This document shows positions 3,952 through 63,700 of a stretch of 64,000 nt of DNA, in pieces (position 1 is the stretch's first letter; each line of letters starts with the position of its first letter). The stretch comes from Closterium sp. NIES-65. Taxonomy: Eukaryota; Streptophyta; Zygnematophyceae; Desmidiales; Closteriaceae. The stretch covers positions 372,001-436,000 of the forward strand of contig CANXME010002048.1 in assembly GCA_948144175.1 (NCBI GenBank), in the 5' to 3' direction. A program made the position numbers and the translations under genes. A model generated the notes under the pieces. It had not been told where the DNA came from, ran no database searches, and was given only the letters and a program-made list of their open reading frames with translations.

Positions 3952-3968
3952 CCACTATGAACTGCTCC

Positions 3969-11958: not shown

Positions 11959-11989
11959 GATAGCAGTCGACAGTCTCACCGGACCGGAA

Positions 11990-22543: not shown

Positions 22544-22689
22544 GGATTAATGAACACTCTTATAACTCAGTTCTTCCTACATATGCAAAGCAGTGGCAAC
22601 AAACCTTTAAGTGCAGTGCTCAATATGTGCAGCCATGAAGGAAGAAAACAAGGTTGTAAGAGATTTGAAGGTGCGCGAGCCAGGTGCAG

Positions 22690-38200: not shown

Positions 38201-38464
38201 ACACACTCACGGCAGTGGCCAACTCATTCCCCTCACGAGTGACCCACTCACGGCAGTGGCCTACTCATTCCCCTCACGAGTGACCCACTCACGGCAGTGG
38301 CCTACTCATTCCCCTCACGAGTGACCCACTCACGGCAGTGGCGTATTCCCCCACGGCATGCTCGGAGGAGGCATACGAGTACATGAGCTCGATGTTGCTC
38401 CTCTCCAACCTCAGCCCCTTTTGCGCCATCTGGGACGCGCCTCTGGTGTGGTGCCACAGAGCGT

Positions 38465-38523
<59 letters not shown>

Positions 38524-41500
38524 CGGGGGGAAACAGCAGCACGAGACGCACGGAAGGGAAATGGATGATTTTTTAGGCGCCTCAAAGCTCGATGTTGCTC
38601 CTCTCCAGCCTCAGCCCTTTATGCGCCATCTGTGACGCGCCCCTGGTGCCACGGATGGAGGGGAGGGGGTGCAGCAGTGGGGGGAGGGAAGGGGTTGGGG
38701 AAGCAGTAGCACAAGACGCACGAAAGGGAGGTGGATGTATGTGTCAGGTAGGGTGAAGAGGCGGGATGCGAGAAGTGAGTGGCGAGAGAGTGAGCGAAGG
38801 AAGAGGTGGGTAAGATTTGTTGCTCTGCATAACTGTAGCACTTATTCATACATGCATAGGGGTGGGGGGAAGGGGGGCGCGGAGGGGAAAGGGGGGAGGG
38901 AGGGAAAGGGGGGAAGGTGGGGAAGTGGGAAAACGAGGGGAGGGAAGCGGGGAAAGGGGATGCGAAGGCATGTGGTTGCTGACTCACCTGTGGTCGCCCA
39001 CGCCATGCTTGAGCAGCGCCCAGTAGCGGTACACCGTCGCAAAGCTGCAGTGCCGAGAGGGGCAACGTGACCTTTGAAAATTCCTTGAAGTCACAGCAAT
39101 ATGTGTGGCGCTCACCTGTGGTCGCCCACGCCGTGCTTGAGCAGCGCCCAGTAGCGGTACACCGTGGCAAAGCTGCAGTGCCGCGAGGGGCGAGGGGAAG
39201 AATGGAGGGGGGGTTGGACAGGAGACGCTGTAAGACGAGGGGAGCACGTGGGATATAACCAAGGCGGGGTAATGGAGAGGCGGGGGCAGATACTGGCAAT
39301 ATCCACATTTGCACGATCCCTTCGCTTGGAAAGCAAAACACTCACCTTGAGTCCGCGTCCAATGCCTTCTGGTAGCACTTGGCTGCGTTTTCTGCATCGC
39401 CGTACTCCTTATAAGCCTGCCCCATGTTAACCCACGCATCCTTGAAATCTGCGCGCAGGGCCACAGCCTTCTTGTACGCCGCAACGCCCTCCATGCACGC
39501 CCCTGTGCCCGTCAGCGCCAAGCCCTGCAGGAGAGATGACAAAGAAGGGGAGGGGTGGCATGGAGGCACGCGAGGAATAGGAGAGGAATGAGGAGGTGGA
39601 ACGCGTTACACAAGCGGGTAACCGAGGTGGGAAAGCAGGACTGACGGACATTCAGCGTCGAAGTGGAGGGCGAAGAAGAATGTGGGAGGAAAGAAGCTCG
39701 GATGATATGCAGCCTGCCATGATGAGATTTACAGCCCTCCGATCCCATCACAGGGCGTCGTCAGCGCGTGGCAGCCATGGTGGCCGTACAACCAGTCAGT
39801 GGTGGTTACTGGGAGAAGAGACGCAGTACCAGGAAGTTATACGCGTTGGCATCTTTCGGATTGGAATCCAGAGAGGTCTTTAGATCCGAAATGGCTGCAC
39901 GGTAGTTGCGCTGCTTCACATACACCACTCCTGCACGCACACACACAGACAGCACAGCAGCACGCAGACATTGCAGCAGCACACACAGATACCACAGCAG
40001 CAACACAGCAGTGTGGGCATTGAAAAGGTGCACTTTCAGTGCTTCAGTGTACCTCCTCAATACACTTGAGACGATAACATGCTCTCATACAAAAATGAAA
40101 ATTGCCAAGAGGCAAGCAGCCAGGACTCAAGGCAGCTCCACGTGCAATGGAGGCAAGCTGCACCTGAAAGAGCCTCATCTCATTCACACACCAAGGACCA
40201 CCCCATCCTTTCCGCACAGCAAGAGCACAGCAAGACACTCACCCCTCTCAGCTAGCACATCCGTGGACGAGGGGTCGATGGTGAACGCTCGAGTGAAATC
40301 CTCAATCACCTGAACGTGCAGCAAGGACCACATACATATATCAAGTTGACTTTTGAGTCGACTCAAAAGTCACCTAGCAAGAAGCACACACATATATCAG
40401 TACGTCACACAGAGAACGGCGAGGGGGAAGCGGGGAGGGAGTAGGCGAACAAAGAGGGGCATTAGCTCGTTATAAATCACTCAGTTCAACTGCCCTATTC
40501 ACTTCTCACCTCGTCCATCTGCCCCAGAGCAGCCCTCGCCTGCGCTCGCCGCTTCCACGCCTCTGCTGCCCGCGGCTCAATCTCAATCGCCTGAGATAAA
40601 ATAAGAGGACAGCAAAGACATGCATTAGCTGGAGGAATGAATGCAAACGCACTGTTTTCTGACGAATTATACAGCAAGCATGTAAAACTTACAGCAGTGA
40701 AATCAGCCACGGCCTCTTTGAGCTTGCGCTGCAGAGCCCGTGCTGTGCCCCGCCCCACCAGCGCACCCAGCGCCCGCCCGTCTGTCTCCAGAACCTGCAC
40801 GCAATACAGAAGGAAGGTGGGTTCAGTTCAGGAGAAGCAGCAGCCACTGTCCAGATGAAAAAAATTGATCGAACCAATAAGAGACAGACAAAGGAACGTG
40901 GTTGGTTGTGTTGTGATAGGCTGATAGCGATGTACCTGATTGAAGGTCTTGACAGCATCGTCAAGCTTGCCTGAATTGACCTGCCAAGGGAAACAGGAAC
41001 GACCTGAAAGGTGAACTGATAATGACGAGGCACTTACGACGCACACAATATGCTCTACTATGCAGCGCTCCTGCGTTCAGCTTAGAAGAGGCTGGATGTG
41101 GAAAGGTCAACGAAAAAACGCAATGTAATTTCTTTTTTTCTTACTTGGTTGATCCCAAGGGAAATCAACAAATCCAATGCCAGGCTGCCGCGTGCTCCTC
41201 CCAACCCCTTCCCTCCGCCACTGCTCCCTTTCCCTCTGTCCTCGCCTCCGCCACTCCCTTCCCTTCTCTCTCCTTCTCGACCCCCCTTCTTCTTCCCCTC
41301 TTTCTTCTGCTCCTTAGGTGAAGCATCTCCCCGCGCCTCCACAGTTGCAACCTCCCCATTGGCCCCCTTCTCTTTTGCACTACGTGATGATGCATCCCCA
41401 GAGCCCGTCTCTACAATCACACACCCATTCTGGGCAGCAGAAGTGGCAGCAGGAGCGCGATGTGAGGACGAGGGAGACGGTGTGGGAGGGGGATTCGCAG

Positions 41501-42425: not shown

Positions 42426-43477
42426 ACCGGCGACGAGACGTGTGGCAGGAATTGACTAAGCTATGAAACAGAGAAACGGAAGCTTAACGAAATCAGTCTG
42501 TGCTCTACCCTTGTCGATCACCAGTCTCCAGAGCCCTCACAACCGCACAAAGTGAAGCCTAAAAGTCGTATCGTGGCTAGTAGGTCCGAGATACCAGAAT
42601 TGAATTCTTTCCTAAGTCTAGTCCAAACCCGATCTACAACTACTGATACATCAAGCTCACTCAACGGCGGAAAGTCGCTTTCACTCGACCAGCTTCACAG
42701 ATCTATGGTGCGAAGCCTGCTAACATGCAGGCCTGACAATCGACGTCCGTGAATCCCATTCGTTGCGACCGAGCCTACAAAGATGGAAGTCTGGAGAGCC
42801 GTTGCCTGATCTCAAAGGTGTCCATCTGCTGATCTGCCTGACGTCCGTCAAAACCTTGAGAAATTTGGCGAACGTACAAAGTTCGCACCCTCGACCTTGC
42901 AATCCGCGACATTCGCGACGTCGATTTGCGACAAGTGAATGGACCCCTGTTGGGAAATCCGTTGGCTTCCGTCAAGTGCGTCGTTCCACGTCGGATGCTG
43001 AACACCATGAAAATTGGGCCTAGTGCAACTCCTCCTACACCATGGAAATCACTTCAGTGTACGTTCTTTCTCCCACCAGGCTAGCCTAATAACGCATACT
43101 GGAAACTAGTGTTGCAAATCCTTCAAATGTAGTGTAGCCATTGTTGCTACTGTTCACAGAAACACTCTCAGTGAGGACGCGTCACCTCAACGCCGATCGC
43201 AGGATCGATCCTACGTAGGATCGATTTTTCACGTGGTTTAATTTGCATCTAGAAGTTTTTACTACGATGCGCGTAGTTTCAATGCGGTGGAAGATCGATA
43301 TTGAGATCGATCGCAGGATCGGCGTTCAGGTGACGCGTCCTAAGCCATTGCACCTACGTTGAGGCTTCTGATGATGATTGGTCTACGTTATGACTCCATA
43401 GTTAAATAATCACCACGTCTTGACGGCCGATTCGAAGTTCGCGTCCATCACATTTCCATGCAACATGTCAACATAGA
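42426..43477. promoter_or_regulatory. Shared upstream region of two divergent family members
   Basis: About 1.05 kb lies between the start codons of the SRFR1-like gene (minus) and gene A (plus), so both promoters and 5' leaders must fit here. No clear TATA box was seen. It holds a small inverted-repeat element at 43,174-43,341. Confidence 0.55.
43174..43341. mobile_element. 168-bp inverted-repeat (MITE-like) element
   Basis: Ends AGGACGCGTCACCTCAACGC and, on the other strand, AGGACGCGTCACCTGAACGC are terminal inverted repeats of 25 bp with one mismatch. The interior contains a 22-bp perfect palindrome, ATCGATCCTAC plus complement. No clear target duplication, so the family is not assigned. 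Confidence 0.72.
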
Positions 43478-46400
43478 ATGGCTCCTGCCATTCGTGCGAC
43501 GTTTGTGTGCCTCTCGCTGAATTTGACGCTATGCACGGTCTTCAATGGTCGATACTACTCAGCTCCACCGTTCTCAAACCATGCCGTTACAGTTAATTTA
43601 GCCGGCGCGAACAAGGGTGGAGGTAGTACGAGAGGTGCGGAGACGGCAGACCAGACAGCGGGGTTCGTCCTTCCAAGCTCGGCGCGCAGGTGCAATGCAG
43701 AGGAACAGACCGATGCCGCTGCAGGGCTCCTCTCGTCTCTTGAAATGCTGAGCTGGTGAGACTGCCAACCAGCACTTCAGAGTGTCAGAACATTACTGGA
43801 TATCGACGCACTGACACTTTCGTCATTTGCACTGCGATCGACACATTGATGTGTACGGGAATCTCGTCGCACATCATAATCTTCAGTGCCGTGCATCATG
43901 GTCATGCATCATGGTCATGCATCATGGTCATGCATCATGGTCATGCATCATGGTCATTCATCATGGTCATGCCTCATCGTCATGCCTCATCGTCATGCAT
44001 CAACGTCATGCATCCACCCAGGAGCCCCTGTCTTTGCGAATGGGAGGCACGTCTGATAGCGTCAGTGCCACATCATCACCCTCTGCCCAGTCGGCCCGCC
44101 TGCATTACTCCATTCATCAGAAAAGGTGATGAAAACAACATATTGAACGAAGGTGCAGCTGCTGCAGAGCCAATGCACTTATTTCTCAACTTTCGGCTTG
44201 AGCTCAGAAGCCAACGTACTTATTTCGCGTCTAATTTTTACAATTTTTTTGCTCCCGTGTTATCGCTTGCTCACCCATGCGCCATCATCCTGGAAACCCC
44301 CCGGCACTATACCTCCCTCCCTCCCCCGCTGTTCATTCCACCGCCCTATCCATCGCAGCAACCAAACTGTATCGCCTGCAGCAGCCACCGGTACCAGCGA
44401 TCGCCGACTCTCCCACTAGTATGTTGGTCGGCCGAGAAGGAAGAGAGGGAGGTGACAGCCAGGCAGCACGGGGCCTGCGGTGTGAGGAAAGCTCCGTGGG
44501 GCGGTTGAGACAGCTGGAGAGCACTGAGCTCTGTGGCTTGCTGCTGCTGGGCGATGGTCCTGGACCTTCTAATGCTGCGATGAGGGAGCAAAGAAGGGTG
44601 CATGAGAATAAGCATGGAAGGGGAGGTCTGGAGGGGAGCAGCACAAGGGCGACTGTAGAAGACGTGAACAACGGTGAAGCGGAACGGAAGCAGACGAAGG
44701 AGGAGGAAGCGCAGGTGACAAGCAAGCAGCTTGAGATGTTGCAGCAGGCGAACGATGAGGTGAGTGCGGTGGTGGTGGAGTGGATGGGCATGGGGGAAGT
44801 GGATGGGAAAACGGATGGGCAAAAGGATGGGCAAAAAGAATGGGTAAAAAGGGTGGGCAAAAAGGCTGTTTATTGCTTCGTCCTAGTATTGTTTGTATGA
44901 GTATCCACCACACCACATCGTATGAGCATCAGTTAAGTAGCCAGCGTGTGAGCTCAAGTCCCATTTGGATTCAACTCTTGATTGTTCAGGCTCATGTACC
45001 TGTTCCGTTTCACCTCTTGATTTGCTGCTGCCTGCTCCCGTCCCATGCAGATAGAACGAGGGGGATATATGGAGGCAATTGCTATCTACAACAAGGTCAG
45101 GAATGCAACCCTATACCCTGCAGATTTTTCTTGTCGCCTCAATGAACGCTTCTGCTTCTGATTTACCACGGTTCGTCCGTATTCCACCTTTCTGTTCAAT
45201 CACGAAACCGCAATTTTCCCTTCACGTACCTGCCTCTGCTTCCCATGCATGGCTCATTCCAGTCCGTTTGTCCGTTAATCCTCCAATCATTGCCCGACAG
45301 CTGGCCTCCATTCCCTCTGTGAAGGATCAGGTGCTTGTTGGCCGAAGCTTCTGTTACGATGCATTGGGGCAGTTTGACAAGGCCGTCGCTGACCTGTCCG
45401 CTGTAAGGAATACATGTCTTCTGTCCCCTCCGCTTCATCCCTTCTTATGTCCCATTGACCAGTTATTCTGTTGCCAGCAGCCACATGATTAAGTTAACCC
45501 ATCAAACTCGTGTGCGATGCGATGCTCCGCTGGCAGGCTCTGTCAGCAAACCCCACAAGCGCAGCTGGCTTCATGGCGCGAGCAGGCATTTATTTCAAAA
45601 TGAACAAGCCTGTCGAGGTAGACATCACATCATGATGTATGTATGGTGACACCGCGAGGTAGGCATCATGATGTATGTATGGTGACACCATGGTGCCATG
45701 GCATCGGGTAGACCAGCCCAGATGTGCAACCATGTGGTTTGCCGCCTTTTGAGGCGCCTCAAAAGTCCAGATGTGCAACCATGTGGTTTGCCGCCTTTTG
45801 AGGCGCCTCAAAAGTCCAGATGTGCAACCATGTGGTTTGCCGCCTTTTGAGGCGCCTCAAAAGTCCAGATGTGCAACCATGTGGTTTGCCGCCTTTTGAG
45901 GCGCCTCAAAAGTCCAGATGTGCAACCATGTGGTTTGCCGCCTTTTGAGGCGCCTCAAAAGTCCAGATGTGCAACCATGTGGTTTGCCGCCTTTTGAGGC
46001 GCCTCAAAAGTCCAGATGTGCAACCATGTGGTTTGCCGCCTTTTGAGGCGCCTCAAAAGTCCAGATGTGCAACCATGTGGTTTGCCGCCTTTTGAGGCGC
46101 CTCAAAAGTCCAGATGTGCAACCATGTGGTTTGCCGCCTTTTGAGGCGCCTCAAAAGTCCAGATGTGCAACCATGTGGTTTGCCGCCTTTTGAGGCGCCT
46201 CAAAAGTCCAGATGTGCAACCATGTGGTTTGCCGCCTTTTGAGGCGCCTCAAAAGTCCAGATGTGCAACCATGTGGTTTGCCGCCTTTTGAGGCGCCTCA
46301 AAAGTCCAGATGTGCAACCATGTGGTTTGCCGCCTTTTGAGGCGCCTCAAAAGTCCAGATGTGCAACCATGTGGTTTGCCGCCTTTTGAGGCGCCTCAAA

Positions 46401-49400
46401 AGTCCAGATGTGCAACCATGTGGTTTGCCGCCTTTTGAGGCGCCTCAAAAGTCCAGATGTGCAACCATGTGGTTTGCCGCCTTCATCCGTGCATGACACG
46501 CAAACACAAGCTGCGATGGTCCATACTTCCATTATACATGTTGACATTGTGCTCCTGCCCTATCACACCACACCAGATTCTGTCATGATGCATCCGCCTT
46601 TGAATTATGCTGCCTGCCAGCGGGCTGCCTGGAAGCAATCCCTTATTGCATCTAGTGCCTCTTCCTTCTGTGTTTGATCCACACCCACATGCCATGTCGT
46701 GAAGGCCATAGCGGACTACTCTCGCGTCATTGACCTGGACCCCTCCAATGCTGAAGCACTCAGGTGGCGAGGTGAGCATACATATGTGCTGGGCGAGTCA
46801 GTGTTGCTGGTTTAGTTGTGTTCACTGCCGCGTTCCTCTCAGCTGCACATGCTTCCATTCCAACTGCAACCATCTCACATCCCTTGTGAGTGATTGTTGA
46901 GAACTCTCAAACATCACACACTTCAAGACCCTCGCTCTCTCTCCATCTTCATCCCTCCTTTCCCTCGTGTCTCCTCCCAATCCCCCTGCCAGGCATCTTG
47001 TCCTTTAACCTGAAGGACTACCATGCAGCAGAGAAGGACTTTCAGGAAGCCATTCACCTTGACCCCTCTCAGTCTTTCGTCTTTCGAGGCCTTGTAAGTC
47101 TCCCTCATGCTACTTATTCAGTCTTCTGACTCCTTCCGATTCTCGTTCCTTATCACTGTGTGGTTATTTTTCCACCTCATACCTCGTTCTCCCTTGTGAT
47201 AACCCGTCCCTTGCTATTCCACTTTTCTTATATGACTGCTGGTTTTCTCGTTGCCCCTGTCCAAAGACAGGCTTTCATTTCATAAGCATTATGGCTTCCT
47301 CCTTCCTTCCATACATACAGCATGCATGGCTTGTTCCTCAACTGTTCCTCCCAGCACCTTTTTCCTCTCTCTTCCTCCTCCCTTTTGATCAATCCCTCTC
47401 CTCTCCCAACCCCCTCACTCCCTTCCCCCCTCCCACTTCCTCACCCTAGGCCCTAGCCATAGGGGGCAGTGGGAGGTGGCGGGAGTCCCTGGCAGTGTTT
47501 GCAGAGGGTGTGAGGCGGCACCCTCAGGATGCGGACCTGTGGCATTCCAAGGGGCGCGCGCACAAGGAGGTGGGCGAGGTGGATCAAGCCATAGAGGCGC
47601 TGCAGCGAGCGCTGCAGATCAGAAAGTGAGTGCCGTGGATGTGTTTGCAGCCATGGTGAGTTCTTTTTGGTGCCCGTGGCATGGCAACAGTGCGGGTCCA
47701 GACATAGCTTGGAATCATTCCCTGCATGCATCCTTCTCAACTCTCAATTTCTTAAAATTTCAATCTCTCAATTTCTAAAATTCCCTGCTTCCATTTCAAA
47801 ACTCCCTGCATCGCATCTGTGCTGGCATTTCATATGTCCTTCTATAATGTCACTGCATCCATCCATCCGTCCCTATTCTCCCTCCCTATTCTCCCAAGCA
47901 TCCTTTCATTCCCGTGTCAACACCCATACTGGGGGCCATGCACGCGTGTGCAAGGAGTCACAGTTAACCACTCCCTCTACTCACATCCATGCATTGCTGC
48001 GTGCACGGCACAGGGCAGTGGCGACCTATCAGGAGCTCGTCGCTGTCAGCCGATTGGTGGGTGACTACAGGTGCGCTCATCTCGCATTTGCACCGTGCAG
48101 GATTGGTTTTCTGCCAGTTTAGTTCTCTTATCAACGTTTGGATAAATACCACTTAAAAATCATCATCCCGATGTTTGATTGTGGGCTCGATGTTGAGCCC
48201 TGCTCTATTAGATGACCACATTTCTGCTCTGCCTTGTCCTTTCTTCTTTCTCTAGCCCGGCCTCTTCACCCCTCTCTCCCTCCTTGCAGGGCCGCCATAC
48301 GCTATGCAAGAGAGGGGTTGCAGCTGGACAGGGGAGACATGGAGCTCGCTCATGCCCACGCCAGCAGCCTGCATGCTCTGGGGGACCTTGCTGAAGCTGT
48401 GAGAGTTCCACACCTCCTCCTCAAGCTGTGTGCTGCCCAATAGTGAGTCGCTACACGCTGTGTGCCGTTCACATTCACAGGCTTGCATAGTGACTTTTTT
48501 AAATCACGATCTCTCACGCACCACACACACACACACTTGCATCACGACGACCCACCACCCTCATCTGCATACCCGTGTGCTGCCCTGCCCACAGATGCGC
48601 AAGTACCAGGCAGCATTGGCACTGCAGCCCAGGGATCAGGACGGACAGGTTCTGCAACACTCCATGTTCTACCAGGCATGTTCTACCAGGCATGCTCTAC
48701 CAGGCATGTTAAACGTTTCAGTGCTTTTTTTGTGTTTTTTGCTCCCCGACCAGCCCCTCGCCACTCCCACTCATCTCCCTTCCTCATATGCTCCCTGCCT
48801 CCCATGACTGCCATTCCAACTGCCCTCCCCCTCCCAGAGGGAGGTACTGTCCTACACCGTTGCTCGCTTGCAGCAGCCGCTCTCCTCTATCCAATTCGAC
48901 TGGGACTTCACTTCTGAGTTCAGAGTACGGCCACGCCTTACTACATCCCTCAACCCTTTATCGCCCTCAACCCTTTATCGCCCTCAACCCTTTATCGCCC
49001 TCAACCCTTCATCGCCCTCAACCCTTTATCGCCCTCAACCCTTTATTGCCCTCAACCCTTCATCGCTCTGAACACAGCCATCTTCATCACCCGTGCTGTG
49101 GCGTCTGTTTCCCATTGGCACGCCTATTCTCATTGCCCTTTGCTCAGACGTAGAATCATCTCACATTGCTCAACCAAGAGGCATCACCACCACATCCCAT
49201 CACAATACCTTTTTATCACATCCCAACCTTGCTACTCCCCTTCAGTCCCCCCTTGCTACATTCCCGACTCATATCCCCCTCCCCCACCGTGGCACAGGAG
49301 GCATGGACCAATAGTGACCCTATAGCAACACTGCCAGGATACCAGCCGCTCTCGGTCAGTTCACGCCAGTTACAGCGCGCCAAACTACTATCCCTGCCCA

Positions 49401-51448
49401 AGCTGTCACGAGGAGGGTTGGATCTGATAGAAGCAGCGGACAGGATCGGCCAGCGTGCCCACTACCACTGTGATGCCTTCATGGCAAACAGGCAGCAGGT
49501 AACAGCAGAGACATGCCAGCATGCTTTGTTTGTTGTTTTCTGTCTTCACCCCTCATATCCTCACTTCCCTAATACTGCCTGCATGAACTTTGTTCCTGTG
49601 CTCACTCCATTCCCCTCGCCCTCCCTCCACCCCTCAGCTGCGCATGGCAGGGCTGGCAGCTCTTGACGTGATGCAGCAGGTGAGACTCTTCCGCTTCCTT
49701 TCCACCCACGTCCTTCTCTCATCTGCCCCCATTCACTTTGATGGTGTTCAGGCCACTCGTAAATCCCCAGGGCTGGCAGCTCTTGACGAGATGCAGCTGG
49801 TTATTCAATGCTGCTTTTGCAAATGCTTGTCACTAAAGACAGTGTTGCAAGTGTGGAGATCTTTCATGCTCTTTCAATTGCTCCATGTGTGCATGTGCCG
49901 TGGCACAGGCAAGGGCAAGTTGGGATGCTATGGCACAGGAGCTGCAGGGGAGGGAGTCAGCAGCTGGTAACACGGTTACAGACACGACAACAACCAAGGA
50001 AAAAGATGCACTAGCAGGAGGAGGCGGAAGGGTAGAGAGCACGGCGAAGCAGAGGCAGAAGGCAAGTGAAAACTCAGGCAAGGGCAGTGGGAAGAGCCGC
50101 AGCAGAAGCAAGGTGTCAGGCGGTGGGGTGCTCAAAGGCTGGAGGGATGTTTACGAGATGATCACCAGATGGAGACAGATCGCCGATCCAACGGCTGCTA
50201 TTCTCTGGAACGACCAACTGAAGTACGTGCCACTGGGATGGCTCTTCCCGTTCTTAATGATTTGATTCTCAATGGTTTCCTGATGGCATGCGATCATGTC
50301 TCATGGGGGGGAAAGGGTGCTCCGTCTGCTTTCCTCTGCAGAAAAAGCTTTGCGCGGGGCGTTCGGTCGTCCACGCCCATCAAGGTGTGGGATCTGCAGA
50401 CCGTCAAGTACTACCCCGTCTTCAACAAGTGGGTCCCTCACTATCCACTCACCTTCTTTCTCGCCCTTTCAGCCTGCCAAACCCACACACTCCCCCCACC
50501 ACTCATACCTCCTAGCACACATTTGAGGCGCCTCAAAACTAGCACACACACCTCTCTTGCACTGACTCCGCTTCTCTGCGGCAGTGTTGTTTTGTCGTCT
50601 GAAGCCAATTTCTGTTGAATGCGTGGCAGGTCGTTTGAGGCCATGCGTGAAGCTCTGCTGGAGTCAGAGCGGGCCTTTTCAAACGACCAGCCCTTCGCTG
50701 TGCCGCGCAACACACGCCACATGGTGAGTGAGCTGTGCCTGTTCCTTGCAACACATATGGCCACATGGGGTGAGTGGACTGCATCGGCCATGGCAGCGAC
50801 AGCAGAGCAGAGACATGCACCGCCCTGACTCCGTTTCTGTCCCCATGCACGTCACATATCAACTTGCCTCTTCGTCTCAGCATTAACCAACTCCTCCCTC
50901 CACGAATCTTTAAGCATCCCAGTCTCCCCTCAAACTCGTCACCTTCCTCCCTTCTCCCATCCCCTCTTCTTTTCTTCCCCTCGCCCCCTGTTCCCCATCC
51001 GTAGATCACCAGGGCGGCTGACCTGCAGGCGCTTCACCAAGCTGTGGGAAAGGAATTTCTTGTCCAAGCACCCTGCTACAGCCATGCCGCTCCAGGGTGC
51101 GCCTTCCCTGCTACAGCCATGTCTTCCCAGCAAACGCCTTTCCTGAAACAGTCATCCCCAGGGTATCCTTCCCTGCTACAGCTGAGCATTTGCGAAGCGT
51201 TGTATCTGCTATTCCTTGCTCCAGCCATGAGCAGTCAGAGTACACGTCACACGTATCACTCTGTATTTCCACCTCTTGTCTCTTTATTTCCACCTCTTCA
51301 GGTGATGCGAGGATGATGGCCTCAAAAGCCTTGCTCCAGCCATGAGCTTTCAGAGCACACATCACGCGTATCACTCTGTATTTCCACCTCTTGTCTCTCT
51401 ATTTCCACCTCCTCGTCTCTGTAACCTCCTCACATCCTCCCATCGCAT

Positions 51449-51489
<41 letters not shown>

Positions 51490-54117
51490 CAGGAAGGACC
51501 TGACCGGATCAATGTTTGAAATCCTCAAGACGTAAGCCATTGCCTCGTGCTTTTTCTAATTTGCCACTTCCCCACGCATCAGGCAGAGCACACTGTTTAT
51601 CAATCACCCAGTTCCCGCAGTTTACCATGCGAGAGCATGTGAATCTCTCCCAACATGTTCCCCCTCACATGCTCTCTTTTCCCTCCCCACCATATTTCCC
51701 TATCGATTCCAACCCCTCCCTTCTCTCCTCCGCCTCTGGAGCTCCATCTGTCTTTCACTCACCTATCCTCCCTCCCTTTTTCTGCATGCACGCATTGAGC
51801 CACCCACACACCACATTCACGCGCTCCTGTTTGTCTGCCTGTACCATACCAGCACCCACGCGTTCAACTTCTACACGCACACGCCAATCAGCGCTCATCG
51901 GTGGCACGGCTTCGACCACGAGCTCCCTGCTGCATGGCAGGTCAGGCGTGCATGACATGACTCATACGCAGCTGCATGGCAGGCCAGCCATGCATGACTC
52001 ATACGCATCTGCGTCTCCTATACCTGTCATGTCAGTCCTTCTCTCCTGTGTGGTCCAACCCCCCTTGCCATGCACACCAATCCCTCCTCTCTTGAATCCC
52101 GGGCACACCTACCTTGCTCCGCCTGCCATTTCACTTTGACGCGACTGCTGCACTTCAGTTCTGAACAAGCGGATACGCGTCTGATCTCTGTCCCATCCAT
52201 TCCTGCTTCCCCCTCCCCCCTCACACCAGGCGCTGTGTGCGGCAGTGCTGGACGCACACACAGAGGCGGCTGACCCGCATCGCTACCGCCAGACGATTCA
52301 AGACGCCATCCTCCGCCTGGGGTACTTCTGGTATGCATCCTCCCCCATCCTCCCTCCCACCAGGCGCTGTGTACGGCACACTGCCATGGGGTGCTCTCCA
52401 TGCTCGTGGCTGGGGCACTTCTGGGGCAGGCTGTGCTGTGCTGTGCTGTGCTGTGCTGTGCTATGCTGTGCTGTGCTGTGCTGTGCTGTGCTGTGCTGTG
52501 CTGTGCTATGCTGTGCTGTGCTGTGCTGTGCTGTGCTGTGCTGTGCTGTGCTGTGCTGTGCGTGCGTGGCCAGTGGGGTACACACGCTGTGCCTGGCTGC
52601 TAATGCATGGGGTACTCTGCGTGCTTGTGGGAGGGTTCACGCATGTAGCTGCCTTGCACAGTGATACACACAGCGCAGACTCACTCCTGTTTTAGATCTG
52701 AAACTCCTTTCACACATCATGCCTGCGTGACCCTCACTCATTTCCCTCTCCCCCTTGGCTACACAACAGGTTCCAGCTGATGCCGTTGACGCGCGGGTCC
52801 GCCATGGTGGGGCTTGTGGTGATTTGAGTCGACTAAAATCCGTGTGTAAGTAGACGACTTTTGAGACGTCTCAAATGACTCGCGGGTCCGCCATGGTGGG
52901 GCTTGTGGTGATTTGAGTCGACTAAAATCCGTGTGTAAGTAGACGACTTTTGAGACGTCTCAAATGACGCGCGGGTCCGCCATGGTGGGGCTTGTGGTGA
53001 TTTGAGTTGACTAAAATCCGTGTGTAAGTAGACGACTTTTGAGACGTCTCAAATGACTCGCGGGTCCGCCATGGTGGGGCTTGTGGTGATTTGAGTCGAC
53101 TAAAATCCGTGTGTAAGTAGACGACTTTTGAGACGTCTCAAATGACGCGCGGGTCCGCCATGGTGGGGCTTGTGGTGATTTGAGTCGACTAAAATCCGTG
53201 TGTAAGTAGACGACTTTTGAGACGTCTCAAATGACCCGCGGGTCCGCCATGGTGGGGCTTGTGGTGATTTGAGTCGACTAAAATCCGTGTGTAAGTAGAC
53301 GACTTTTGAGACGTCTCAAATGACGTGCGGGTCCGCCATGGTGGGGCTTGTGGTGATTTGAGTCGACTAAAATTTCAACCCACTTTATTCCTCTCCCTCT
53401 CCGCCTTCGCTACACAACAGGTTCCAGCTCATGCCGTTGATGCGCGGGTCCGCCATGGTGGGGGTGGTCTCCATCCTCGGCCTCTCCATGACTGCTGACA
53501 TGCCTCTCGCTATTCTTGTGTATCCTCCACCCATCAACACCCCCCTCTCTGAACCGCACAGGTTCCAGCTGATGCCGTTGACTCGTGGCTCTGCCATGGT
53601 GGGGGTGGTCTCCATCCTCGGCCTCACCATGGCTGCTGACATGCAGACCACTGCGCTCATCCCCGATGGGGTGCAGGTAGGCTGAGCCGTGCTATTGGAG
53701 GCATGGTTGCCCTTTGAGGCTGGAACATTCTTTTCTTTTTCTGCCACGTGCGTTGACTTGACACATGATCACGCCGTTGTCAGCAAGAGATTACTTATAC
53801 TCAACAGCAAGACACATCAGATAGCGTCCCAGCGGTTCAGTTAAAAATACAATGACAGGAAGAGCACACTCTTGTCTCTCGAGGTTTTCATAGAGCCTTT
53901 TCCCTGGCACAATCAATCACCGAGTAATTGTTTCATTCATACCTCTACCATTCAGGTTGACTGGGAGGCTTTACTTGTGTCTCGCTTTGAAGACTTCAAT
54001 GCCTCTGTTGCCCCATGGCTCTTCGTCTCTACTCAAAGCTCACCCTGGGATCTAGCCCCTATCGAGGGTGCCCACGCACCATGTGATTGCAGCATTGAGT
54101 TACGATGTGATGCATGA
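43478..54117 (+). CDS. TTC13: TTC13/SRFR1-like TPR protein, gene A
   Basis: Exon 1 43478-43755 (hydrophobic N-terminus ATFVCLSLNLTLCTVF, a probable signal peptide as in TTC13). Exon 2 ends 44759, start unresolved. Then 45051-45095, 45301-45402, 45537-45617, 46705-46771, 46993-47093, 47450-47625, 48014-48070, 48290-48398, 48595-48675, 48838-48924, 49298-49498, 49638-49679, 49909-50222, 50342-50428, 50630-50723, 51005-51096, 51493-51531, 51853-51940, 52230-52330, 53562-53676, 53956-54117. Phases join correctly from exon 3 on. TPR part: LGQFDKAVADL, AIADYSRVIDLDPSNAEA, DYHAAEKDFQEAIHLDPS. C-terminal core: GWRDVYEMITRWRQIADP, FNFYTHTPISAHRWHGFD, MPLTRGSAMVGVVSILGL, VDWEALLVSRFEDF. Exon 11 uses a GC donor. 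The tail is frame-shifted against the sister exon at 2802-2978, so the usual end is lost. Confidence 0.85.
43897..44012 (+). repeat. Short 13-bp array in gene A
   Basis: About nine copies of CATCATGGTCATG/CATCGTCATGCCT after exon 1. Gene B has the same unit at the same place expanded to about 108 copies. Confidence 0.88.
45715..46480. repeat. 49-bp palindrome-spaced array, 16 copies
   Basis: Unit GTCCAGATGTGCAACCATGT GGTTTGCCGC plus the palindrome CTTTTGAGGCGCCTCAAAA, almost without variation, in the gene A intron between 45,617 and 46,705. Each unit body is separated from the next by one palindrome. Confidence 0.95.
49741..49800 (+). repeat. Partial copy of the GLAALDVMQQ exon
   Basis: PGLAALDEMQ coding DNA 110 bp downstream of exon 49,638-49,679. 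Gene B has the same copy at 62,959-62,987 with the same flanks, so this duplication is older than the A/B split. Confidence 0.8.
50512..50549. repeat. Palindrome between 10-bp direct repeats
   Basis: CTAGCACACA - TTTGAGGCGCCTCAAAA - CTAGCACACA in a gene A intron: the minimal form of the X-P-X design. Confidence 0.88.
51440..51492 (+). repeat. ATGCCC hexamer repeat at a splice acceptor
   Basis: About eight CATGCC units run up to the acceptor of the 39-bp exon at 51,493. Confidence 0.85.
52430..52562 (+). repeat. Pentanucleotide microsatellite (CTGTG)n
   Basis: About 26 units with two CTATG variants, in a gene A intron. Confidence 0.93.
52741..53463 (+). repeat. 89-bp array with two palindromes per unit, 7 copies, between exon copies
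   Basis: Units start GGGTCCGCCATGGTGGGGCT at 52,795 and every 89 bp to 53,329. Each contains a piece of the FQLMPLTRGSAMVG exon, the near-palindrome TTTGAGTCGACTAAAA and the palindrome CTTTTGAGACGTCTCAAAT. Larger copies of the exon start with acceptor (ACACAACAGGTTCCAGCT) lie on both sides (52,765 and 53,415), before the working exon at 53,562. Confidence 0.92.
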
Positions 54118-54761
54118 AAAGTGACCATTTGCTGGTTGCCCTCTCTTGCAACATTGTAGTAATTTTTGTTTCATGTTGTAATACTGCAAAAGCGGTGGTT
54201 AAACGATTGCTGGTTCTGTGGTTGATGCTGCTTTTTTTTTTTGCGATTGTGGATTAACCGGATGGGTGAAACTTGAGATGTGTGCGTTTGTTTGTGTCTT
54301 CCCACATGGAATATTACTTCATTGAATATAGATTCGTGTTTTCTCTGTCCAAGTGTATCGATTACGAGGAAATGCGTCAAGACTGTGCGAGCCTGTCCCA
54401 CATCGCGCAGACACCTGCAACAGTCGCAGCGGTCTCCCTGTCTCCCTCTCCTACGAAGCCGATCAGGGCCGACGCACGACGCTGACGAGGGGTAACTGTG
54501 ATTCGTGCTTTCGCGAATTCTACATCACAGCTCCGCCGTGTTGAACAAACAAGGTGTTGGCTCAATCCAGCATTGCTTCAGTCAGCTCATCCTTTGTGAA
54601 CAACATGACAGTCACGAAGAGCAAGACCAAAGAGCCAGCTGCATTGCATCGCAGAGTCCTGAAGGCCTCCGACGATGACCAGCTTTCGTTTAGACGAAGC
54701 ATTTCAATAGTCACCTAACGCAGTCGATGTGAATCACATTTCCGTGCAACGTCCGCGTAGA
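54118..54761. other. Intergenic region between tandem genes A and B
   Basis: About 640 bp. The last 35 bp before gene B's ATG match the corresponding bases before gene A's ATG (CACATTTCC.TGCAAC), so the duplication took some upstream sequence along. No gene is seen. Confidence 0.6.
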
Positions 54762-57700: not shown

Positions 57701-60700
57701 CTAATGTACCTGTTCCATCGCTCGATCTGCTGCTGTCTGCTCCCGTCCTATGCAGATGGCACGAGGGCGATACACGGAGGCAATCGCCATCTACAACAAG
57801 GTCAGTCAGGGACGCAGCCTAATAACCGTCACCATTTTCTTGTCTCCTGGATAGCAGATTCTACTCTAAGTCACTGCAGTTCATCCATCTTCCTCCATCC
57901 CACATTCCTTTATCAGACTGCAGTTCTCCCTTCACACGTGACGTGACATGTCCGCCCTTGCCTTCCATGTATGGACCGTTCCCGCCTGTTTGTCCGTTGA
58001 TCCCCCAATCATTGCCTGACAGCTGGCGTCGACTCCCTCGCTCAAGGGTCAAGTGCTTGTGGGTCGAGGCTCCTGCCTCAGTGCACTGGGGCAGTTCGAC
58101 AAGGCCCTCGCTGACCTGTCCTCTGTAAGGATTGCACTCCGTCCACTTCCTTCCTTCTTATGAGACGTCTCAAAAGTCTGCCACAGTGCACTGGGGCAGT
58201 TCGACAAGGCCCTCGCTGACCTGTCCTCTGTAAGGATTGCACTCCGTCCACTTCCTTCCTTCTTATGAGACGTCTCAAAAGTCTGCCACAGTGCACTGGG
58301 GCAGTTGGACAAGGCCCTCGCTGACCTGTCCTCTGTAAGGATTGCACTCCGTCCACTTCCTTCCTTCTTATGAGACGTCTCAAAAGTCTGCCACAGTGCA
58401 CTGGGGCAGTTGGACAAGGCCCTCGCTGACCTGTCCTCTGTAAGGATTGCACTCCGTCCACTTCCTTCCTTCTTATGAGACGTCTCAAAAGTCTGCCACA
58501 GTGCACTGGGGCAGTTGGACAAGGCCCTCGCTGACCTGTCCTCTGTAAGGATTGCACTCCGTCCACTTCCTTCCTTCTTATGAGACGTCTCAAAAGTCTG
58601 CCACAGTGCACTGGGGCAGTTGGACAAGGCCCTCGCTGACCTGTCCTCTGTAAGGATTGCACTCCGTCCACTTCCTTCCTTCTTATGAGACGTCTCAAAA
58701 GTCTGCCACAGTGCACTGGGGCAGTTGGACAAGGCCCTCGCTGACCTGTCCTCTGTAAGGATTGCACTCCGTCCACTTCCTTCCTTCTTATGAGACGTCT
58801 CAAAAGTCTGCCACAGTGCACTGGGGCAGTTCGACAAGGCCCTTGCTGACCTGTCCTCTGTAAGGATTGCACTCCGTCCACTTCCTTCCTTCTTATGAGA
58901 CGTCTCAAAAGTCTGCCACAGTGCACTGGGGCAGTTGGACAAGGCCCTCGCTGACCTGTCCTCTGTAAGGATTGCACTCCGTCCACTTCCTTCCTTCTTA
59001 TGAGACGTCTCAAAAGTCTGCCACAGTGCACTGGGGCAGTTCGACAAGGCCCTTGCTGACCTGTCCTCTGTAAGGATTGCACTCCGTCCACTTCCTTCCT
59101 TCTTATGAGACGTCTCAAAAGTCTGCCACAGTGCACTGGGGCAGTTGGACTAGGCCCTCGCTGACCTGTCCTCTGTAAGGATTGCACTCCGTCCACTTCC
59201 TTCCTTCTTATGAGACGTCTCAAAAGTCTGCCACAGTGCACTGGGGCAGTTCGACAAGGCCCTTGCTGACCTGTCCTCTGTAAGGATTGCACTCCGTCCA
59301 CTTCCTTCCTTCTTATGAGACGTCTCAAAAGTCTGCCACAGTGCACTGGGGCAGTTGGACAAGGCCCTCGCTGACCTGTCCTCTGTAAGGATTGCACTCC
59401 GTCCACTTCCTTCCTTCTTATGAGACGTCTCAAAAGTCTGCCACAGTGCACTGGGGCAGTTCGACAAGGCCCTTGCTGACCTGTCCTCTGTAAGGATTGC
59501 ACTCCGTCCACTTCCTTCCTTCTTATGAGACGTCTCAAAAGTCTGCCACAGTGCACTGGGGCAGTTGGACAAGGCCCTCGCTGACCTGTCCTCTGTAAGG
59601 ATTGCACTCCGTCCACTTCCTTCCTTCTTATGAGACGTCTCAAAAGTCTGCCACAGTGCACTGGGGCAGTTCGACAAGGCCCTTGCTGACCTGTCCTCTG
59701 TAAGGATTGCACTCCGTCCACTTCCTTCCTTCTTATGAGACGTCTCAAAAGTCTGCCACAGTGCACTGGGGCAGTTGGACTAGGCCCTCGCTGACCTGTC
59801 CTCTGTAAGGAGTCTTCTGCTCCGTCCACTTCCTCCTTCTTATCTCCACTTGTCCACTTATTGAGTGATCAGCAGCCCCATGATTTATCAACCCTTCCAA
59901 CTCGTGTGCTGTGCTCCACTGGCAGGCTCTGGCATCAAACCCCACAAGCACTGCTGCCTTCATGGCTCGAGCAGGCACTTATTTCAAGATGAACAAGAAT
60001 GTTGAGGTACATGTGATGATGTATGGTGGCGACGAGGGGTAGGGGGGGGACCACATCATTAGGTAATGGCATCATACATGCATGATGTCTCATCGAGTAG
60101 ATGGGACAAGATACGCTGTCATCCTCTTACTTACTGCATGATGTCATTAGGTTCACAGGTAGACTAGATCAATTGTGCAGCCGTGTGGATTGCTATCATC
60201 ATTCGTACATATGACAGACATGCTGCCATGGTCCATAGTTCCAATACGCATGTTGCCATTGTGCTCCTGATCACACCAGATTCTGTCCCGACTCTTGGCC
60301 ATTGGCCTTGCTGTCAGCAGGCATCCTGCAGTGACACAGCTGCTGCCATCCCTCGTTGCATCTCGCCCTTCTACCCTCTGTTTTATTCCACACCAACTGT
60401 CATGTCGTGAAGGCCTTAGTGGACTACTCACGAGTCATTGACCTGGACCCCTCCAATGCCGAAGCTGTCAGGTGGCGAGGTGAGTGCTGGTGGTGGGTGC
60501 GAGACACGACACAGCACTGCTGGCTTAGTTGTTCTCATCTCACTTCCACGTGCTTCCATCTGCCTTTTGAGTCGACTCAAATGCTGATAGAGGCGCGCCA
60601 TCATGTGAACATCTGCCTTTTGAGTCGACTCAAATGCTGATAGAGGCGCGCCATCATGTGTCCATCTGCCTTTTGAGTCGACTCAAAAGTCACTTCCACG

Positions 60701-63700
60701 TGCTTCCATCTGCAACCGTCTCCGCTCGTTTCCTTCAACACACTCGCTCTCCCTTCAACACACTCGCTCTCCCTTCTCATCCGCTCATCCCACCCCTCCT
60801 GTCTCCTCTCTATCTCACTGCCAGGCATCTTGTCATTCAACCTAAAGTACTACTATGCAGCTGAGAAGGACTTTCAGCAAGCCATTCAGCTCGACCCCTC
60901 TCTTCCCTTCGTCTTTAAAGGCCTTGTATGTTATTCCTCACTCACGATGCTTCCTCATTCTTCTGATCTGTTGACGCTTTTAAATCCTCATTCCTTTGGG
61001 TTTGGGGGCATTTTTTATTGCTTCTTCCCTCCTACCATATGTCCAACATGCATTACCTGTTCATTAGGTGTTTCTCCCAGCACCCAAATTCCACTCTCCT
61101 CTTCTCCCTTTCGATCCATCCCCATTGTGACACTGTCCTCTGCTCCCCTCTCTCTAACGATCCTCACTCCCATAATCCCATTTCCTCTAGGGCCTCGCCA
61201 TAGGGGGCAGTGGGAGGTGGCGGGAGTCGTTGCCAGTGTTTGCAGAGGGAGTGAGGCGGCACCCTCAGGATGCGGACCTGTGGCATTCCAAGGGGCGCGC
61301 GCACAAGGAGGTGGGCGAGGTGGATCAAGCCATACAGGCGCTGCAGCGAGCGCTGCAGATCAGAAAGTGAGTGAGTGCCGTGGATGTGACTGCTTACAGT
61401 CCCCGCGTCCTTCCTTTCCCTTGCTAGTACCCATTCTGGGGGCACGCGTAAATGATACCACTGACCACACCCTGTGCTCACACCCGTGCATTTCTGCGTG
61501 TACTACACAGGGCAGTGGCGACCTATCAGGAGCTCGTGTCTGTCAGCCGATTCGTGGGTGACTACAGGTGAGCTACCCGCACTTGCACAGTCAGGGTGTT
61601 TTCTTTTGTTCTGGGGAAGCTTTGTGTTTTCTTGTTGGCTGGATGAATATGACCTATGGAGCTCCATCCCTACTTTCCCTCTCTTCTTCTCCCCTCGCTC
61701 CCACCCCACAGGGCCGCCATACGCTATGCAAGGGAGGGGTTGGAGCTGGACGGAGGAGACATGGAGCTCGTGCACGCCCACGCCAGCAGCCTGCATGCCC
61801 TGGGGGACCTCGCCGAAGCTGTGAGCATCCCACACCCACACCCACCCCAAGCTGTGTGCTGTCCATTAGTGAGCTGCTACACGCCATGCTGTTCCTTGTA
61901 TAGTCTCCTTTCACACCAGCCTCATCAGGACCGCCCACCCCTCATCTGCACACCTGTGATGTGTTGCCCACAGATGCGCAAGTACCAGGCAGCGCTGGCA
62001 ATGCAGCCCAGGGACCAGGAGGGACAGGCTCTCCAGCACTCCATGTTCTACCAGGCATGTTCCAAAAGTTCAGCGGTTTTGTTGTGCTTTTTGTCCCACG
62101 GACAGTGCCTTGCCCGGTATCTTTCCCTTCCTCATCCGCTCCCTCCTTCCCCTATCTGCAATTACGACTCCCCTCCCCCTCCCAGAGGGAGGTACTGGCC
62201 TACACCATTGCTCGCTTGCAGCAGCCGCTCCCCTCCATCCGCTTCGACTGGGATTTCACTGCTGAGTTCAGAGTACGGCCACCCCTTACCACCCCCAACA
62301 CAGCCGTCCTCATCACCTGTTGCATTTATTTCCGTCAGTACAACCATATTCAGTGGCTTTTCTTTGTTTGCTTGCTATTGCTATTGCCATGTTTCTCCCT
62401 CCCCCTCATACGTATTTTTCCCCTCTCCAATAACTCACATACCCTCCCCCCCAACCACAACAGGAGGCATGGACTAAGAAGGACCCTATAGCAACGCTGC
62501 CAGGCTACCAACCCCTCTCAGTCACTGCACGCCAATCACAGCGCGCCACGTTGCAGTCCCTGCCCACGCTGTCTCGTGAAGCGTTGGATCTGATCGAAGC
62601 AGCGGACAGGATCGGCCAGCGGGCCCACTACCACTGCGATGCATTCATGGCAAACAGGCAGCAGGTAACAGGCAGCAGGTAACAGGCAGCAGGTAACAGC
62701 AGAGATATGCCAAGATGCTTTTCCCTCTTTCTTTCTGTCTCTCCCCCTCTCACTTCCCCTTATTTCCCTCATTAAATCTGTTCCTGTTTTGACTCCGCCC
62801 CCTCCTCCTCCCTTCACCCCTCAGCTGCGCATGGCAGGGCTGGCAGCTCTTGACGTGATGCAGCAGGTGAGATTCTTCCCCTTTTTTTCCACCCTCGCCC
62901 TTCTCTCATCTGCCCCCATTCACTTTGATGGTGTTCAGTTCACTCGTACATCCCCAGGCCTGGCAGCTCTTGACGCGACGCAGCAGGTTAGTCAATGCTG
63001 CCCTTTCCCAACGCTTGTCTTCTAAGGACAGTGTAGGAGGTATGCGTACATTTACGCATTCAAGGTAGTCTCTGGCTGGTAGGGCCTTGTGACTGAAGGA
63101 GCTGGCGTCGTTATGTAAGCTTACAAGCCTTCCTATGTATGTGTGCCATTCATTTGTCTCTCCGTGTGTGCATGTGCCATGGCGCAGGCAAGGGCAACAT
63201 GGGATGCCATGGCAAAGGAGCAGCAGCGAGGGGGGAGTCGGCGGCTGGTGACAACAACCATGGAAACTGATGCACCAGGAGGGGGGGGAGAAGGAGGAGG
63301 AGGAAGCGTAGGGATAGAAAGCAGGGCGAAGCAGAGGCAGCGGGGAAGTGACAGCTCCGGCAAGGGCAGTCGGAAAAGCAGTAGCAGAGGCAAGGGGTCG
63401 GGCGGTGGGGTGCTGAAGGGGTGGAGGGATGTGTACGAGGTGATCACGAGATGGAGACAGATCTCCGATCCAACGGATGCTGTGCTCTGGAAGGACCAGC
63501 TCAAGTACGTGCCACTGTGATTGCCTCTCTGATGCCATGCCATGCCATGCCATGCCATTGTGGTCTCTGAGAATGCTCAAAGTCGGTTTATGAGAACTCT
63601 CTGGGTTTCGACAATTCAACGGATGCTGTGCTCTGGAAGGACCAGCTCAAAGTGGCTGTGCCCTGTACAGCCACTATGGTTTCTCGTCTCAGTTCTTTGT

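Follow-up and report, generated by a model that had tools for sequence, protein, structure and literature searches.

The window analyzed here is a 64,000-nt stretch of Closterium sp. NIES-65 (contig CANXME010002048.1, positions 372,001 to 436,000). With up to 2 mismatches allowed, the palindrome TTTTGAGNCGNCTCAAAA matched 43 times in the window, versus a mean of 0.01 and a maximum of 1 in 100 shuffled sequences. The matches lie at 38,570 (2 mismatches), 40,351, 45,747 (15 copies), 50,521, 52,859 (6 copies), 58,158 (16 copies) and 60,565 (3 copies), where the initial annotation had placed a palindrome family. The direct repeats that it had described around the palindromes were found to abut them at 7/7 window sites. 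Coordinates are given in Table 1, with P for the palindrome and X for the direct repeat.

Table 1. Palindromes (P), flanking direct repeats (X) and related duplications in the window.
Feature	Position	Strand	Description
Old duplication	22674..22883	.	75 bp, 88%; spacer end is a decayed GCGC-type palindrome, 22787-22808
Duplication	32783..32917	.	42 bp, 88%; spacer similar to a decayed palindrome of the ACGT type (least convincing of the four such spacers)
Old duplication	35971..36166	.	89 bp, 79%; 21-bp spacer is a decayed TCGA-type palindrome
Old X-P-X	38387..38740	.	X 38387-38569 and 38588-38740; decayed GCGC palindrome 38570-38587
X-P-X	40320..40399	.	X 40320-40343 and 40376-40399 (24 bp); TCGA palindrome
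Array X(PX)15	45718..46483	.	Unit 49 bp, X 29 bp; GCGC palindrome
Decayed palindrome	46886..46921	.	Centre AACT (AATT in the other haplotype); no accompanying X found
X-P-X	50512..50548	.	X CTAGCACACA, 50512-50521 and 50539-50548 (10 bp); GCGC palindrome 50522-50538
Duplication	51214..51414	.	86 bp, 92%; spacer end is one arm (CTCAAAAG)
Array, 89-bp unit	52787..53373	.	ACGT palindrome, 6 copies from 52859
Array X(PX)16	58073..59843	.	Unit 105 bp, X 85 bp; ACGT palindrome
X and three TCGA palindromes	60540..60713	.	X 60540-60563 and 60690-60713; filler between palindromes

The 10-bp repeat reported at 50,512 was confirmed, and the 24-bp repeat at 60,540 measured 22-24 bp. A repeat of ~22 bp had been put at 40,340; it is present, but it is 24 bp long and begins at 40,320, with copies identical at 21 of 24 positions. 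These copies enclose a 32-bp TCGA palindrome with one mismatch (40344-40375), and the other haplotype is identical in arrangement. The repeat at 38,379/38,588, given as ~65 bp, is actually ~150-180 bp long (127 identical of 152 aligned positions between the 38.4- and 38.6-kb copies). The 45.7-kb array has 15 palindromes here versus 9 in the other haplotype. A decayed TCGA palindrome from 52824 in the 52.8-kb array lies within an older exon duplication (85 identical of 94 aligned), and the X of the 58-kb array covers the end of an exon and its 5' splice site. The fillers at 52,841 and 60,583 had no other source within the window.

A motif-independent repeat scan, from which tandem-array rows, sites already known and spacers >100 bp were left out, yielded 17 spaced two-copy duplications with spacers of 14-95 bp. 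Spacers resembling a decayed P were found in 4 of the 17 (22,787; ~32,850; 36,060; ~51,320; shuffle fraction ≤0.014 each), and 13 were not P-like; P thus occurs to the left of 38 kb as well. The earlier statement that the transposon block on the left lacks palindromes holds inside the two copia elements of the window, in neither of which one was found, but not for the DNA left of 38 kb as a whole.

Across the fetched regions and the window, direct repeats abutted 35 of 56 palindrome clusters as compared to 21 of 1,500 random positions. Under this strict rule 19 clusters had no abutting repeat at score ≥9, several of them with longer arms or filler. The test replaced an earlier control (44/60 clusters versus 106/600 random positions, score 9) that was inflated because of tandem arrays. 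X measured 11-85 bp among the 35 scored cases and 10 to ~180 bp overall, and the host copies flanking P are in direct orientation. At 4/4 comparable sites (of 7), the partner in a tandem paralogue has a single X and no palindrome: the 45.7-kb array, the 58-kb array, 50,512 (partner at 63,880) and 60,540 (partner at ~46,840). Alignments were rough for the last two pairs, and the empty partners there were read directly from the sequence. X is a single-copy target that was duplicated.

The excess was also seen genome-wide, with 63,641 matches to TTTTGAGNCGNCTCAAAA (≤2 mismatches) in the 874-Mb assembly versus 136 for the reversed pattern; these copy numbers include both haplotypes and every array copy. 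The three centres named in the initial annotation (GCGC, ACGT and TCGA) were seen, and a fourth, AATT, exists with 2,601 exact matches, as compared to only 4 for CCGG. When RT gene ends were compared, the four centres divided by retroelement lineage. In dispersed palindromes the centre is conserved and the outer ends are variable, and those examined sit within genes and other internal DNA. A non-palindromic "template gene" was rejected as the source: GAGGTGACTTTTGAGTCGAW occurred at 79 places, and the 20 examined were mostly mutated or repeated palindromes. In collections of prokaryotes and viruses, 11 viral and 8 genome stretches contained an exact core; abutting repeats were seen at 0/19, and the matches there were taken as chance.

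The palindrome lies within the RT codons of a retroelement. Among 20 RT gene ends retrieved through protein homology, 15 carry a perfect 18-bp palindrome formed by the codons [LVIF]-L-[SR]-[RI]-L-K, 14 of them having TTTTGAG/CTCAAAA arms and the other being L107. It is located near the RT C-terminus, in frame at homologous codons of many lineages. L106 lacks the palindrome. (L100, L117 and L118 form one near-identical group and L111 and L119 another; L106, L117, L118 and L119 were excluded from one lineage comparison.) Over 17 lineages the symmetric positions co-vary, with 98.7% of cells paired and 14 double changes versus 3.7 after shuffling (0/500 shuffles). When all spellings are weighted equally, ~1 in 1,200 synonymous spellings is palindromic (1 in 600 for L-R-I-L-K). 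In L082, the only element examined at full length, the palindrome forms the 5' edge of a pseudo-LTR; its pseudo-LTRs are direct (378-769 and 3910-4301, 99.7%, cut off by the end of the stretch), and those of L080 are inverted (1-302 and 1254-1555).

A Penelope-like (PLE-type) retroelement is well supported as the source of the palindromes. Motifs that we take to be PLE-specific were recognised in the element RT, and the best 11 PDB matches in Foldseek were telomerase RTs, the query being a predicted model with a mean pLDDT of 48.6. The RT had no sequence match in PDB and none in NCBIfam, and the RVT_1 match of the element ORF was weak, below Pfam's cut-off; the PLE label rests on this match and on the low-confidence model. 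Pfam detected no GIY-YIG or other endonuclease in five ORFs from four loci. A search for hammerhead ribozymes in L080, L082, L092 and L097 with Rfam (E up to 1) returned four weak unrelated matches.

The arms of P continue into the 3' side of the element. Of 156 arms, 85, 64 and 33 matched downstream sequence at ≥3, ≥5 and ≥8 nt, versus 2, 0 and 0 upstream, and the codons downstream of the RT palindrome match the arms of dispersed P. TCGA predominates in this analysis, since loci L040-L099 were selected by TCGA-type patterns; L020-L039 are the surroundings of the first-listed genome matches and so no random sample. Fifteen loci were dropped, namely the elements L080, L081, L082 and L097 and the overlapping or allelic loci L043, L045, L046, L047, L050-L054, L065 and L069, as were copies ≤200 bp from another; L040, which coincides with L032, and the apparently allelic pair L048/L056 were kept. 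Arms of the ACGT and GCGC types matched a lineage at ≥3 nt in 4/18 and 2/18, with few lineages sampled. A TTTTAAGTCGACTTAAAA family, predicted from a lineage spelling, was found to exist (65 versus 0); of six independent sites examined, five had X and five had lineage arms (8-27 nt).

We consider it probable that each P is a minimal PLE-type insertion, in which tails grown from two 3' ends were joined at the palindrome centre to give X-P-X. A staggered break or paired nick would be filled in across X from both 3' ends, each of which would base-pair over a few nucleotides with the element RNA at an internal position and then grow as far as a fixed terminus at the centre of the palindrome. Each tail would then end in ...TTTTGAG-NNNN-3', where NNNN is self-complementary (TCGA, ACGT, GCGC or AATT, depending on the lineage). 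The two tails could anneal over these four bases and be sealed, leaving X, tail, inverted tail and X. If copying ran far on one side, the same join would produce a long element whose left end bears a short inverted arm, the arrangement of L082. X-P-X may later be expanded to (X-P)n satellites by unequal exchange or slippage, an expansion suggested by the difference in copy number between the haplotypes (15 versus 9).

Self-priming, in which one cDNA end passes the palindrome, folds back and copies its own arm, so that the inverted pair reflects one priming event, is the explanation proposed, in the parts of PMC3846280 consulted, for palindromes where inverted pLTRs of rotifer Penelope elements meet; here we regard it as unlikely. 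In its favour, left and right arm lengths are correlated (Spearman 0.36, p = 0.001; equal in 23/78) and 13/18 two-armed palindromes fit one lineage, so that the two arms may not be fully independent. In the other 5/18 the best lineage differs between the arms, and does so cleanly in two (L039:3651 and window 40,351), although single differences could be explained by later mutation. A fold-back should copy the arm fully and then host DNA in inverted orientation, but the host copies are direct. Arms are also often very unequal, at TTTTAAGTCGACTTAAAA-family sites (17/3, 3/20, 8/0, 14/3) and where the template was re-used in tandem: in arrangements of the form X-(17-mer)n-TCGA-(inverted)m-X, n,m was 6,1 and 1,7, and 2,1 in a further case.

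Repair of nearby nicks typically leaves X duplications that carry inserts. Host break repair might have captured a ready-made palindromic double-stranded cDNA between filled-in ends, with the RT inactive at the break. The trimmed arms and the fillers at 52,841 and 60,583 would suit such capture, which is nevertheless very improbable given the one-sided tandem re-use of the template and the junction bases, which are in register with the template above chance, as expected of priming on RNA. Micro-homology in register was present at 34/47 junctions versus 22.9 in simulation (two or more bases, 18 versus 8.5). Tail lengths for the simulation were entered by hand from the table of an earlier permutation; the simulation superseded that permutation, which had taken in arrays and left some of the chance overlap out of account. 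Of 90 junction tails, 43 were not pure template of any sampled lineage. The initial annotation's suggestion of a repair or template-switch footprint was partly right, because the tails resemble RNA-templated additions at break ends.

Its other suggestion, a tiny mobile palindrome that copies variable lengths of target, was apt as a description (4/4 empty partners, X of 10 to ~180 bp), but mobility of its own, as a very small MITE captured by chance in RT genes, has next to no probability: despite its high copy number and perfect symmetry, P has a conserved centre and varying outer ends, the reverse of a terminal-inverted-repeat element, its X is not a fixed short duplication, and it lies in frame in the RT codons of a PLE-type element from whose 3' side its arms derive. 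Restriction-like overhang modules, homing-endonuclease sites, CRISPR-like spacer logic and MITEs were dropped after the RT gene was found.

For the two-ended joining of PLE-type tails, we tentatively propose that the palindromic codons may be kept by selection as a joining adaptor, placing the same self-complementary four-base end on both cDNA tails. If so, they would let the element solve second-end capture without an endonuclease of its own, and the centre could drift among lineages (TCGA, ACGT, GCGC, AATT) yet remain self-complementary. The X-P-X scars left by very short rounds would act as seeds of minisatellites and duplicate splice sites. Minisatellites whose spacers are palindromic are given a concrete source by this genome, as are host duplications (10 to ~180 bp, some of them spanning splice sites) that lie next to a retroelement scar. 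In the literature searched, largely outside subscription journals, no title or abstract dealing with palindrome-only insertions of PLEs was found, a weak indication of novelty.

Among known systems, the palindromes of green-algal organelles differ in sequence and compartment (PMC4524435 and PMC7235400, as far as consulted), and Replitrons, with 2-8 bp duplications and direct terminal repeats, do not match (PMC10741241, in part). Interstitial telomeric sequences are similar in their short templated break inserts, in-register micro-homology and some target duplications (PMC2246262, in part), but the unit inserted here differs from the telomere repeat TTTAGGG, which was rejected as a source of P; (TTTAGGG)4 had 3,055 matches, one at the first bases of contig C17. 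Athena and Coprina, endonuclease-deficient telomere-associated PLEs (PMC12477314, in part), combine a telomerase-related RT with the lack of an endonuclease and the use of existing 3' ends, as the element here probably does; unlike them, the palindromes examined here are internal or in genes and not at TTTAGGG repeats.

The purified protein of PAc, a green anole PLE, cleaves and extends both target strands in vitro and starts inside the RNA (PMC11167929, in the parts consulted), which resembles the joining proposed here. PAc carries both an endonuclease and a hammerhead ribozyme, whereas Pfam and Rfam searches found neither in the ORFs and loci covered here, and palindromes are not mentioned in those parts of the paper. 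Features of PLEs in the broad sense are present, namely direct and inverted pseudo-LTRs, target-site duplications (seen for palindrome-only insertions) and, judging from Foldseek on the low-confidence model, a putative telomerase-related RT.

A close likeness is to the Penelope elements of Adineta vaga, described in the parts of PMC3846280 consulted as having direct and inverted pseudo-LTRs, target duplications, and palindromes both at inverted junctions and at the pLTR 5' end (of 18 bp in Pen2 and 38 bp in Pen3a). Those inserts are long and few, their duplications measure 8-10 bp and the elements encode a GIY-YIG endonuclease, whereas the inserts here consist of a palindrome only and number in the tens of thousands, with duplications that range from 10 to ~180 bp and a palindrome in RT codons. 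How Penelope-like insertion ends, and why inverted junctions carry palindromes, was left open there, with self-priming proposed and tests requested; this genome, with its great number of lineage-tagged minimal junctions, makes self-priming versus two-ended joining countable.

Searched in the window with up to 2 mismatches, TTTTGAGNCGNCTCAAAA gave 43 matches to the short palindrome (P, of the TTTTGAG-NCGN-CTCAAAA type) versus 0.01 expected from shuffled sequence, which bore out its occurrence at the seven places named in the initial annotation. The direct repeats (X) described there as bracketing the palindrome were found abutting P at all seven sites. Tandem Repeats Finder gave array units of 49, 89, 105 and 53 bp. 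In alignments, the X copies were identical at 127 of 152 positions in the 38.4/38.6-kb repeat, at 21/24 in the 40.3-kb repeat and at 22/22 in the 60.5-kb repeat; in the older 52.8-kb duplication the copies agreed at 85 of 94. A scan for local repeats that made no use of the motif supplied 17 spaced two-copy duplications, chosen outside tandem arrays; the spacer was P-like in four and not P-like in 13.

The proposed palindrome family held up genome-wide: the 874-Mb assembly contained 63,641 matches to the motif (both haplotypes and all array copies counted) versus 136 to its reversed control. The same was true of the flanking repeats beyond the window. In 200 kb fetched around listed motif matches, together with the window, abutting repeats reached a score of at least 10 in 35 of 56 palindrome clusters, as compared to 21 of 1,500 positions drawn at random after masking of tandem arrays, and X in those 35 clusters was 11 to 85 bp long (median 29); 19 of the 56 stayed below score 9. 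With any centre allowed, 157 core matches, array copies included, had TCGA (45), ACGT (43), GCGC (42), AATT (9) or other centres (2 or fewer each). The assembly appears to contain both haplotypes; for a 601-bp query there was a full-length 100% partner on contig C1768. The 45.7-kb array held 15 palindromes in the window and 9 in the other haplotype (L122, G000:C1768), so the length of the array is unstable.

The window, which is G000:C1750:372001-436000 in this assembly, is eukaryotic nuclear DNA. Two copia-type elements lie at its left in opposite orientations, and three related TPR-type genes (A, B and C), which we take to be SRFR1-like, lie farther along. Because paralogues A and B can be aligned along much of their length, the two could serve as mutual empty-site controls. 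Comparison was possible at four of the seven P sites (45.7, 50.5, 58.1 and 60.6 kb), and in all four the partner carried a single X without palindrome, judged by alignment at two sites and by reading the sequence at the other two, where automatic alignments were rough. X in the 58-kb array covers the end of an exon together with its 5' splice site. The inverted-repeat element listed below looks like a MITE.

Features of the window, with positions in nucleotides unless kb is given
Feature	Position	Strand	Remarks
Copia-type retroelement	5989-12060	-	Judged from ORFs
Copia-type retroelement	14487-20462	+	1,991-aa open frame; RVT_2, rve and gag_pre-integrs domains
Different 18-bp palindrome, CGTTTCCCTAGGGAAACG	22746-22763		Adjoins decayed P, between copies of one duplication
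CAGGCGCCTG	22749-22808		Adjoins the same decayed P
Queuine tRNA-ribosyltransferase gene	24100-28600		Intron-split; several local exon-piece duplications (units 146-212 bp), mostly without palindromes
TPR-type gene C	about 42 to 32 kb	-	
Tandem exon of C	32932-33260		2.8 copies (117 bp, 96%), without any palindrome; counterpart in A carries the 52.8-kb palindrome array
Inverted-repeat element	43175-43347		Ends GACGCGTCACCT...; internal 22-bp palindrome ATCGATCCTACGTAGGATCGAT
13-bp satellite TGCCTCATCGTCA and variant	43892-44014		9.5 copies, upstream of A
TPR-type gene A	about 44-54 kb		Tandem paralogue of B
45.7-kb palindrome array	45718-46483		
13-bp satellite TGCCTCATCGTCA and variant	55199-56604		108 copies, upstream of B
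TPR-type gene B	from about 57 kb		

Beyond the 18-bp core the arms continue symmetrically, with differing lengths, as AGGTGAC in TCGA types and CACGTG-N12 in ACGT types. The TCGA arm occurred as a direct tandem at 138 places in the genome (59 + 79; control 0), and the tandem-arm loci read as X-(unit)n-TCGA-(inverted unit)m-X, where n differs from m (for example 6 and 1 at locus L042, 1 and 7 at L049, 2 and 1 at L058). Longer arms, present at 469 places (control 0), led to loci L080-L082, where the palindrome arm extends into an element that carries a reverse transcriptase (RT) gene. L082 has open frames of 486 (ORF1) and 651 aa (ORF2), and its pseudo-LTRs, which are direct and at least 392 bp long, start with the palindrome. 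The pseudo-LTR pair of L080 is inverted and 302 bp long. ORF2 matched RVT_1 below Pfam's cut-off and gave no match in the PDB by sequence. Its AlphaFold model was of low confidence (mean pLDDT 48.6), and the 11 best Foldseek matches of the model were all telomerase RT, a predicted likeness that would, as expected, fit a Penelope-like (PLE) RT. The lysine-rich ORF1 (741-2201 of L082) had no match in Pfam or NCBIfam, Pfam found no GIY-YIG domain in five ORFs, and no hammerhead ribozyme was found in four loci. Palindrome arms also make up longer satellite-like arrays (L044, L056 and G000:C2080:4569098 onward), with a 17-bp unit or a 59-bp unit around TTTTAAGTCGACTTAAAA.

ORF2 had 71 scored genome matches, five of them full-length at 100% with the query among them, and the C-terminal ends of 20 further matches (39 to 79% identical) were fetched. 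In 14 of these 20, the codons aligned to L-L-S-R-L-K spelled TTTTGAG-CTCAAAA around a self-complementary centre, which was TCGA (L113-L116), ACGT (L100, L103, L109, L117, L118), GCGC (L101, L108) or AATT (L102, L104, L110). The L107 spelling, TTTTAAGTCGACTTAAAA, is a perfect palindrome too, giving 15/20. Arms with imperfect centres were present in L111, L112 and L119, and L105 was further changed. L106 (G000:C969:49700-50300), at 39% identity the most distant of the 20, had no palindrome at the aligned codons, and this lineage is a natural negative control. Over 17 RT ends (L082 in; L106, L117, L118 and L119 out), symmetric positions co-changed: 98.7% of cells pair, and there were 14 double changes versus 3.7 in shuffled data, with 0 of 500 shuffles reaching 14. 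Among equally weighted synonymous spellings of these residues, about 1 in 1,200 is a perfect palindrome (1 in 600 for L-R-I-L-K).

A source in the RT gene predicts that the odd L107 spelling has a palindrome family of its own. TTTTAAGTCGACTTAAAA occurred 65 times in the genome, arrays and the RT gene itself counted, versus 0 for the reversed control. Eight pieces around it were read, and as L130/L131 look like other haplotypes of L126/L127, these represent six sites; direct repeats were found at five, and at five an arm, in most cases that of a single side, matched 8 to 27 nt of the codons downstream in L107. The CCGG centre, permitted by the protein code and present in no sampled lineage, occurred 4 times in the genome, and the AATT centre 2,601 times.

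For 156 arms from 78 clusters with exact cores, the bases past the core were compared with same-centre lineages. They matched the downstream side of the codon palindrome over at least 3, 5 and 8 nt in 85, 64 and 33 arms, versus 2, 0 and 0 for the upstream side. Downstream matches of at least 3 nt were obtained in 77/114 TCGA arms, a sample biased by the choice of loci, and in 4/18 ACGT, 2/18 GCGC and 2/6 AATT arms, for which few lineages were sampled. Since the matches are downstream and hardly upstream, both arms, at least for TCGA, are copies of the 3' side of the RT-gene palindrome, joined at the centre; the claim is narrower for ACGT and GCGC.

The palindromes are a real feature, and a retroelement explains them; the interest lies in how the two tails meet. 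Arms were often unequal in length at the tandem-arm loci and the TTTTAAGTCGACTTAAAA sites. A single lineage fitted both arms in 13 of 18 two-armed palindromes, and the best lineage differed between arms in five, cleanly in two (L039:3651 and window 40,351); two target 3' ends seem to have been extended separately. Isolated palindromes offered 90 junctions, 47 of them with a tail that was wholly template, and in these 47 the host base beside the tail was in register with the template in 34 versus 22.9 under a simulated null (p about 9e-4), with at least two such bases in 18 versus 8.5. Self-priming, put forward in a published article (PMC3846280), gives inverted arms, and the correlation between left and right arm lengths (Spearman 0.36) leaves room for it. 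The unequal arms, differing lineages and in-register junctions, together with the behaviour of a PLE protein, favour two-ended, internally primed reverse transcription with a four-base join. Reverse transcription would be primed internally at both target ends and proceed up to a fixed terminus, probably the 5' end of the RNA, and the two tails would join through the self-complementary four bases; the breaks may be supplied by the host, and the arrays may enlarge by unequal exchange. For comparison, a study of purified PLE protein describes cleavage and extension of both strands, with a start inside the RNA (PMC11167929).
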